A stretch of 64,000 nucleotides of DNA from the NCBI RefSeq assembly GCF_000186865.1, contig NW_008705561.1, positions 373,711 to 437,710 on the forward strand. The letters are read 5' to 3'. How positions within the stretch are numbered: the first letter of the stretch is position 1; each line of letters starts with the position of its first letter. The position numbers and the translations under genes were made by a program. The notes under the pieces were generated by a model. That model did no database searches. It was not told the DNA's origin and saw only the letters and a list, made by a program, of their open reading frames with translations. Shown one piece after another: positions 16,970 to 19,387 of the stretch. The stretch comes from Aureococcus anophagefferens (Eukaryota; Sar; Pelagophyceae; Pelagomonadales; Pelagomonadaceae).

Positions 16970-18109
16970 CTAGGCGGGCGCGAACGCGGCCGGAAACGGC
17001 GGGACGCTCCCGGCGAGCGTCGCTTCGTGTTCGAGGGCCCCTCCGTCGCCGACGGAGAAGGACGCGACGGTGCTCCCGTGCTGTCCGGCGACGAGGAGCG
17101 TGCCGTCGGAGGCGAACGCGGCGCCGCGGGGGAACGCGTCGACGTCCTCGGTCCGGCGCGACGCGACGAACGGCTTCAGCGGCTCCGACACGTCGACGGA
17201 CACGACCGCGCTGTCCTCGCCGCGGACCGTCGCGAAGATGTAGTTGCCCCGGACGAGCAGCTCGGCCGCCTTGGACCTGTTCGAGGGCGCCGATGGCAGC
17301 AGGGAGACGATCGGCCCCGGCTCGAATTCGAGCTCGCCAGAGGCCTCGGTAAAGGACCAGGCCTGGAGAAACGATCCCATCTCGTGCAACACGTAGAGCA
17401 CGTTGTGCGACGGGTGCTCCCGCGCGTGCCGCGGCCCGGCGCCGGGCGGCGACGCGGCCGAACCGACGCGGCGCAGCCGGCCGCTTCCGTCGTAGCGAAA
17501 CCCGTAGATCCGATCGCCGCCGAGGTCGCAGGCGAACGCGATCCCCGGGAGCCGATGCGAGACGACGACGGAATGGATGTGGCTCGCTCCCTGCCGGCCG
17601 TCGGGGTCGACGTGCGACGGCGCATCTACAGCAGCAGAATCCTCTAGCGTGAGCCCGCAGCCATCGCGCCGCGAGAACGCGGCGACGGACGCGCCGCTGG
17701 AATTCGTTCCGTCGTCTGGTGCTGCGTAATTTGCGATCAGCATCAGCTGGCGATCGGGCGAGAGCTCCATGTACAGCGGCGTCTTTCCTCCCGAGGGCTC
17801 CGACGCCACTAGCGCGAGCGCGCCGTTGTCATTGCGAAAGCTCGCCACGCGGTTCGTGTCGTGCAGCGCCGCCCAGGTGCAGTCGCCGTCGGTCACGAGC
17901 CACGACGGGATGCCGCCGGCGTCCACGCGTTCGAACTGCGGCCACGACAGCGCGCCCGTGGCATCCACTTGGACTGCCCCTATTAAGCGCTCGTTTTTGG
18001 GATCGTCCACGCAACCATGATCTAGCACGTCGCATCCACCACTGCCGACGAAGAACAGCTCGGCGCTGGCGACGCCGACGCCAGCCATCACTAGGAACAA
18101 GCGCATCAT
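16970..18109 (-). CDS. Secreted 6-phosphogluconolactonase-like beta-propeller protein
   Basis: 379 residues with an N-terminal signal peptide (MMRLFLVMAGVGVASA) and no other membrane segment. The body shows repeated propeller blades typical of the lactonase family (YbhE/Pgl, cycloisomerase-2 type). Examples are TPLYMELSPDRQLMLIANY, GASHIHSVVV, GAGPRHAREHPSHNVLYVLH and PRGAAFASDGTLLVAG. Bacterial relatives hydrolyse 6-phosphogluconolactone in the cytosol, whereas this copy should enter the secretory pathway. It may therefore act on another extracellular lactone or be a binding propeller. The gene is intronless in this window and divergent from the selenoprotein gene (94 bp between starts). Confidence 0.8.
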   Translation of the reverse strand: MMRLFLVMAGVGVASAELFFVGSGGCDVLDHGCVDDPKNERLIGAVQVDATGALSWPQFERVDAGGIPSWLVTDGDCTWAALHDTNRVASFRNDNGALALVASEPSGGKTPLYMELSPDRQLMLIANYAAPDDGTNSSGASVAAFSRRDGCGLTLEDSAAVDAPSHVDPDGRQGASHIHSVVVSHRLPGIAFACDLGGDRIYGFRYDGSGRLRRVGSAASPPGAGPRHAREHPSHNVLYVLHEMGSFLQAWSFTEASGELEFEPGPIVSLLPSAPSNRSKAAELLVRGNYIFATVRGEDSAVVSVDVSEPLKPFVASRRTEDVDAFPRGAAFASDGTLLVAGQHGSTVASFSVGDGGALEHEATLAGSVPPFPAAFAPA

Positions 18110-18203: not shown

Positions 18204-19298
18204 ATGGAGCTGGCCGTCAAGGCCATGACCGAGCGGCTCGTCGAGGACTGCGGCGGCTGGCTGCCGCTGACGATGCGCGCCTGGCGCAAGTACACGCGGC
18301 GGAAGCTCGAGAAGAAGCGGCCGGCGCCGGCGCCGGAGCCCGAGGAGGTCGTCGAGGCTGCCCCGGAGCCCGAGGAGGAGCCGCGCGTGGCCTGGGCGGA
18401 CGCCGACGACAGCGGCGGCGACGGCGAGCTCTACGGCGAGGGCTACAGCGAGGGCAAGCTCGAGGACGACGACGACGACGCACTGTCCTTCGAGGTCGCG
18501 CCGGCGCCGCCGCGGCCGAAGCGGCGCATGAGCGGCTTGGAGCGCGACGAGGCCGTGGCCGCGGCGGCGCTGCTGAGCCGGCGGCGCGACGCGTCGGCGA
18601 CCTACTTCCTGCACCAGCGCCAGAGCGAGACGACGCGGAACCGGTCCGGCGTCGAGAGGCGGCACCCCGAGCGCGCGCCGCCGAGCAAGCGGTTCGCGTG
18701 GCTCGACCAGCAGGGCGTGCCCGCCGCGCACGCGGAGCACACGGCCGCGCGGGCCCTGGCGCTCTTCCCCGCGCTCAAGTGCCTCGAGGTCGCGACGGGC
18801 GTCGCGCAGCACCTCTTCCTCGCGCTCGACGCCGCGGCGCTCGTCGTCGAGTTCTACCTGTCCAACGACGCGCCGCGGACGCGCGAGCCCGTCGTCGCCG
18901 TGGACCCCTGATGCCCCGTGCGCGGCGGCCGGAGCCTCGACTCGCTCGACGCCTTCGCCGCGCGGTGCCGCGCGGGCGCCACGCCCCTCGGCGACGTCGC
19001 GGCCGCAGGCGGCGTCGCCTTCGTCGCCGTCTGCATCGACGACGACCCCCGCGTCTGCGCGCGCGAGGCGCGCCGCAAGTGGCCCCACCTCGCCCACTTC
19101 TGGATCGACTCGAAGAACGTCGCGGCCGCGCGGATCGCGTTCGTGCCGAACCGTGCGGTCGTCCGCCGGGACCGGTCCGTCGCCAAGTGGTGGGACGGCT
19201 CCAACGGCAACGTGCTGCGCGGGCCCCACGGCGCGAGCCGCACCAACGGCTCCCAGTCCCTCGTGCGGGCCATCGCCAGCGCGCTCGACGACGCCTAG
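18204..19298 (+). CDS. Predicted selenoprotein with thioredoxin-like C-terminal domain (UGA = Sec236)
   Basis: From ATG 18204 the frame meets TGA at 18909-18911, then continues open in the same frame for 128 codons to TAG at 19296-19298. The second part contains no Met codon, so it cannot start on its own. It carries thioredoxin-fold features: strand AFVAVCIDDD, KWPHLAHFWID, then IAFVPNRAVVRRD and KWWDG. The TGA lies after strand VVAV in VDP-U-CPV, at the start of the next helix, where thioredoxin-fold proteins have their redox residue. Reading TGA as selenocysteine gives 364 residues with Sec236-Cys237. A SECIS-like hairpin starts 13 bp after the stop. The N-terminal half is acidic or basic low complexity of unknown role. 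A plain stop giving a 235-residue protein cannot be excluded. Confidence 0.72.
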
Positions 19299-19310
19299 GC
19301 GCGCGCGCCC

Positions 19311-19387
19311 GCGGGAAGCCCCATGACGGCCGCCGCCGCGACCACCGCCCCGGACGGTGTCGCGCGCGGCCCGACCCCGCTTCCCGC
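19311..19387 (+). promoter_or_regulatory. SECIS-like selenocysteine insertion element in the 3' UTR
   Basis: A hairpin with eukaryotic SECIS architecture. Helix I is a perfect 9-bp stem (gcgggaagc 19311-19319 with gcttcccgc 19379-19387). Next come a C-rich internal loop (CCC/CCCC), then ATGA at 19323-19326 opposite GA at 19373-19374, which can form the tandem G.A quartet. Helix II has about 17 bp with three single-C bulges (19328-19347 with 19355-19371), and the loop is 7 nt. The usual apical AA is absent; CC at 19342-19343 may substitute, as in CC-type SECIS. The element lies 13 nt after the TAG of the UGA-containing gene. Confidence 0.65.

Follow-up and report, generated by a model that had tools for sequence, protein, structure and literature searches.

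The window analysed here is a 64,000-nucleotide stretch of contig NW_008705561.1 of the pelagophyte alga Aureococcus anophagefferens; its plus strand carries, at 18204..19298, a coding sequence of 364 residues that contains an in-frame TGA and is followed by a hairpin resembling a selenocysteine insertion sequence (SECIS) element. The frame starts at ATG 18204, meets the TGA at 18909-18911 (codon 236, in the context VAVDP-U-CPVRGG) and continues for 128 open codons that include no ATG, ending at the stop TAG (19296-19298). The hairpin occupies 19311..19387 of the same strand, 12 nt separating the stop from its first helix, and by strand and spacing it would belong to the same mRNA as the gene. 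A sequence-only reading of the window had proposed a selenoprotein gene with its own SECIS, and its coordinates are correct. We hold with high confidence that the gene does encode a selenoprotein, in which UGA 236 is read as selenocysteine (Sec) by means of a 3' SECIS of the type used elsewhere in its own genome. The proposal is borne out by a paralog with TGA at the aligned position, relatives that are split at this codon, codon bias that continues beyond it, a SECIS of the genome's own type and a gene for tRNA-Sec.

The extent of the coding sequence is supported by its translation with TGA as U, by a shared N-terminus and by GC content at third codon positions (GC3). The N-terminus MELAVKAMTERLVED..GGW is common to the predicted proteins P0002 and P0003, and the start of P0004 is related. 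In the same frame, GC3 is 0.99 before the TGA and 0.98 after it, compared with 0.75 in the 3' flank; in the paralog (L002) the values before and after the TGA are 0.96 and 0.98. The open run of 128 codons without Met, to which the sequence-only reading gave weight, is present as described but is weak evidence: because the DNA is approximately 70% GC, all six reading frames of this C-terminal stretch are without stops, and frame openness alone is therefore not evidence of coding and was rejected as such. The second half is coding, as judged from the paralog, the protein relatives and codon-position GC, each of which is independent of the hairpin.

A search of the A. anophagefferens genome (49.05 Mb, 86 contigs) identified one paralog, L002, on the minus strand of another contig (C4), with 40% identity over residues 156-359 (E 2.3e-24) and one TGA inside the match. 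When both genes are read through, the alignment is gap-free at the TGA, pairing VAVDP-U-CPVRGG with VAVDA-U-SRVRGG, such that VAVD-x-U-x-x-VRGG is kept on either side of the codon and both copies in this genome retain TGA at the same place. No third member was found in the genome with P0017 as query, the sole match (E 0.04) falling in the Ala/Pro-rich part of that protein.

Relatives were also sought in a database of 5.8 billion proteins, in which the matches are gene-caller predictions; the searches behind the 16 N-terminal halves and, in part, the 26 C-terminal halves recovered here scored the 8000 candidates sharing most words. Every N-half (16/16) ends at the residue preceding the TGA, although these represent only about four distinct sequences, and none of the 26 C-halves contains the family's segment from upstream of it. 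Nine C-halves start at the position of Val239, where the window gene and its paralog both have GTG, and a few others are preceded by unrelated sequence; one C-half, P0028, derives from an MMETSP transcript assembly. P0004 and P0023 each list a longest contig of 3,111 bases and may come from a single contig. Such a pattern is the expected result when a gene caller meets a Sec codon: ordinary gene-finding software divides the family at the UGA. Homologues ending at the TGA had been named beforehand as grounds for abandoning the selenoprotein proposal, and all of the N-halves do end there, but as gene-caller predictions with corresponding C-halves they fit Sec. The paralog has TGA at the position aligned with residue 236, and three protein-database searches with limited candidate sets returned no full-length relative with Cys there, an absence that is not proof. 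Scans of viral contigs returned no relatives. In a tree of 19 C-halves, window gene and paralog included, 11 rows group with the window gene and eight with the paralog (clade B) with support of 100/99; the tree carries a warning of one long branch, P0036. There are several divergent members on each side, and the duplication therefore looks old.

The hairpin has the SECIS architecture as defined in PMC8704476, its two helices being separated by a core of AUGA in the 5' strand and GA in the 3' strand. A perfect helix I of 9 bp pairs 19311-19319 with 19379-19387, and the core that the sequence-only reading described lies at 19323-19326 (AUGA) and 19373-19374 (GA); the 17-bp helix II of that reading is right in pair count, but the 46 nt concerned (19327-19372) fold with bulges and not as one continuous helix. 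The folding energy of -48.9 kcal/mol is the best among the 516 [AG]TGA cores that the two strands of the window contain, the next being -39.5, and no core reached -40 kcal/mol in any of six Markov-1 replicates of 64 kb. The hairpin therefore exceeds chance expectation. Against dinucleotide shuffles, the 106-nt stretch that contains it folds only moderately better (z -2.25, with 4/200 shuffles as good), and folding energy by itself discriminates imperfectly: among the 13 controls described below, 5 lie between -29.6 and -39.0.

Control elements were taken from four known selenoprotein families in the same genome, GPX, Rdx (SelW/T-like), MsrA and Sep15/SelM, for which 12 of 31 matched stretches contain one in-frame TGA. 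Loci were scanned for a single stem-loop enclosed by [AG]TGA and GA and flanked by a helix. The 13 control hairpins (L004, L006, L007, L011-L014, L021-L023, L028, L031 and L032) comprise those at 11 of the 12 TGA stretches, that at L007, and that at L014, an Rdx stretch without TGA that was added; L007 is the exon after the twelfth TGA stretch, L010, and the two exons form one GPX gene with one hairpin. The hairpin lies 7 to 192 nt past the stop at 12 of the 13 loci. At the thirteenth, L028 (MsrA, C38), it covers nt 1888-1942, 54 nt ahead of the next in-frame TAG, and it may overlap the coding sequence, or the frame may end earlier through splicing. C immediately follows [AG]TGA and immediately precedes GA in all 13 controls, and likewise in the window gene and its paralog. 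Among 17 same-family stretches without TGA, by comparison, a hairpin with C/C flanks occurs near the stop in one, L033 (C11, minus strand), where it lies 60 nt past the stop with an energy of -43.7; the Sep15/SelM match of L033 begins only at profile position 16, and this stretch could represent a downstream exon of a selenoprotein gene whose Sec codon lies further upstream. Another negative, L015, has a weak hairpin inside its open frame and the remaining 15 have none; the negative-control scan thus supports the selenoprotein reading.

A covariance model (R1) was trained on 4 of the 13 control SECIS, picked for clean alignment and from genes other than the window gene. It ranks 19313-19384 first in the window (27.1 bits, E 0.0027) and, over 164 kb and with the training hairpins set aside, only two control SECIS outscore the window hairpin. 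Its scores for L032, L014, L013, L006, L022, L004 and L007 descend from 37.5 to 16.3 bits, the lower ones being among background; it recovers a 31-base apical piece only of L012 and misses L011. The paralog hairpin has the strongest folding score of the 15 (-60.5). The genome also encodes tRNA-Sec, with anticodon TCA in the gene (73.9 bits); Sec machinery is recognized here from tRNA-Sec(UCA) and the 12/31 TGA stretches.

The frame of the paralog ends at the TGA of its own SECIS core (oriented nt 2145-2148). On a plain reading, its first UGA encodes Sec and its second, 134 codons further on and inside the SECIS, is the stop. P0019 and P0027 end in HGPDPARRAP, the same residues as the paralog, and may share this arrangement of stop and SECIS.

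AlphaFold2 models, together with Foldseek and VIA-align matches to TlpA/ResA/CcmG proteins, predict a thioredoxin-like domain on the TlpA/ResA/CcmG side of the fold at residues 188-364 (18765..19295, plus strand). The Sec is placed in the loop that joins strand beta1 (residues 212-218) to helix alpha1 (242-256), near the usual redox position; the charged N-terminal half of the protein is modelled with low confidence. Approximately 17 residues lie between beta1 and the Sec. There is no CxxC, UxxC or CxxU motif, the window gene having UCPV and the paralog USRV. The Cys that follows Sec in the window gene is thus Ser in the paralog, these being the two sequences in which the residue is seen, and the U-C redox pair envisaged by the sequence-only reading is therefore unsupported. 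Cys277 (codon 19032..19034, plus strand) appears the better candidate partner for Sec: no other Cys is conserved in most of the aligned C-halves, and the residue is Cys in 16 of the 18 rows that cover the column and Ser and Asn in the other two. The invariant Val-Pro at 314-315 probably occupies the place of the cis-Pro loop of thioredoxin. Sequence searches of Pfam, NCBIfam and the PDB yielded nothing credible, the best matches being E 0.013 to an unrelated Pfam family and E 0.43 to a PDB entry.

Several observations weigh against the selenoprotein interpretation. The apical loop of the window hairpin (CCCCGGA) lacks the AA(R) motif, and its helix II is longer than the 29-41 nt of the 13 controls; AA is also absent from the predicted terminal loop in 10 of those controls, and the motif therefore does not define the SECIS in this genome. 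CC variants of the apical motif are known. The SECIS model of Rfam (SECIS_1, RF00031) has no match at the window locus, and since it has none in the whole genome either, control loci included, its silence here is uninformative. R1 scores the paralog hairpin at 23.4 bits, within a background in which a training hairpin read as its reverse complement reaches 25.2 and another hit 23.2. TGA, as opposed to TAA or TAG, is the presumed break codon of the metagenome relatives, which are represented by protein predictions, and the codon in clade B is seen in one gene only (L002), since the 16 N-halves all fall on the same side of the family as the window gene. Confidence in the Sec loop is low, with predicted local distance difference test (pLDDT) scores under 50 at residues 49-52 of the domain model, and no thioredoxin-superfamily model of Pfam matched any of 17 members, nor one of NCBIfam any of four proteins. 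Finally, the evidence for passage through the UGA consists of sequence and predicted structure.

Conservation of coding across the UGA cannot by itself separate Sec from other read-through, and the codon might be passed without selenium, a near-cognate tRNA inserting a residue other than Sec, the mechanism suggested for SPS1-UGA of Hymenoptera. That precedent, as presented in PMC4561486, has neither a SECIS nor the greater part of the Sec machinery, whereas both paralogs here have a SECIS-type hairpin in a genome with tRNA-Sec, and the predicted fold places UGA 236 close to its redox position; we regard such read-through as very unlikely. Less probable again is that the TGA lies inside a short intron, or that it genuinely terminates the frame and a second or unrelated gene comes after it. 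Potential splice sites do occur within 60 nt of the TGA (five GT on the upstream side, at distances of 9 to 58 nt, and one AG whose end lies 23 nt past the codon), and the N-half relative P0016 has an insertion resembling a retained intron, though elsewhere; yet any such intron would remove part of the conserved residues that the paralogs share, gap-free, on both sides of the codon, and a second gene would have to begin in a C-half that has no ATG in either the window gene or the paralog.

A long frame interrupted by a nonsense codon would also be expected of a decaying gene, and a further alternative is a pseudogene or a sequencing error. The break occurs, however, at the same aligned codon in two apparently old paralogs and at the same residue in all 16 N-half relatives, and codon-position GC is the same after the TGA, leaving decay or error with a negligible probability similar to that of the intron or second gene.

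Recruitment of SBP2, EFSec and Sec-tRNA by the SECIS is established for eukaryotes. For the selenoprotein proposed here, we infer Sec insertion in the cell, catalysis and a partner Cys: the 3' hairpin would recruit this machinery and the ribosome would read UGA 236 as Sec, giving a product whose N-terminal half is charged and whose C-terminal thioredoxin-like domain has Sec just before helix alpha1. Because the second Cys of a CxxC pair is absent, the protein is predicted to be, most likely, a single-selenol oxidoreductase or peroxidase, with Cys277 or an external thiol as the possible resolving partner of its selenol.

Elsewhere in the window, a 379-residue frame on the minus strand (16970-18109) is arranged head to head with the selenoprotein gene, starting 95 bp upstream of it; from its sequence it looks like a beta-propeller lactonase. 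A probable U14 (SNORD14) C/D small nucleolar RNA lies on the minus strand at 2560-2664 (54.3 bits, E 9.6e-9), under the gathering score of 64.

In predicted-protein sets the family is present as two fragments, and standard annotation easily misses it. Furthermore, with the AA motif mostly missing and a public SECIS model silent in a GC-rich genome, algal selenoproteomes of this kind may be undercounted. Should no residue other than Sec occur at this site, the family would be a good test of what selenium does beyond sulfur. The chances are about even, in our estimate, that these genes represent an undescribed, Sec-only thioredoxin-like family of pelagophyte-like algae, comprising two ancient paralogs, in which a lone selenol (no CxxC) acts together with Cys277 at the end of strand beta2 and the stop of paralog B is the UGA of its SECIS core.

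Thioredoxin-like selenoproteins are well known in algae. The main-text parts of PMC7539508 report 82 selenoprotein genes in 33 families for A. anophagefferens, 'Hypo' and 'TlpA' among them, and the algal families with thioredoxin-like folds include TlpA, PRX, AhpC, PDI and SELENOU. A VHL-SelM fusion is also reported for this species; a VHL search matched nothing in the present genome, and nothing in the control genomes either, and is uninformative. Those main-text parts contain no description of the motif reported here; the gene lists of that study stand in its supplements, and the window gene may have been listed earlier, for example under 'Hypo' or 'TlpA'. Like other eukaryotic selenoproteins of algae, it combines an in-frame UGA with a downstream AUGA/GA SECIS and places Sec near the redox position of a thioredoxin-like domain. 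Unlike the thioredoxin-like algal selenoproteins, the family is without a Pfam thioredoxin match, a Cys homologue (within the limited candidate sets) or a CxxC, UxxC or CxxU motif. It differs from peroxiredoxins, thiol peroxidases and human PGFS/PRXL2B, the last a relative of SELENOU, in having no Pfam sequence match to them. The nearest solved structures by Foldseek and VIA-align are TlpA, ResA and CcmG (DsbE), which the window protein resembles in predicted fold and order of elements. It departs from them in that aligned identity is only 6-18%, Val239 replaces the C-terminal Cys of CxxC, the spacing from beta1 to Sec is presumably longer than in ResA, and the gene is eukaryotic and encodes an extra N-terminal half.
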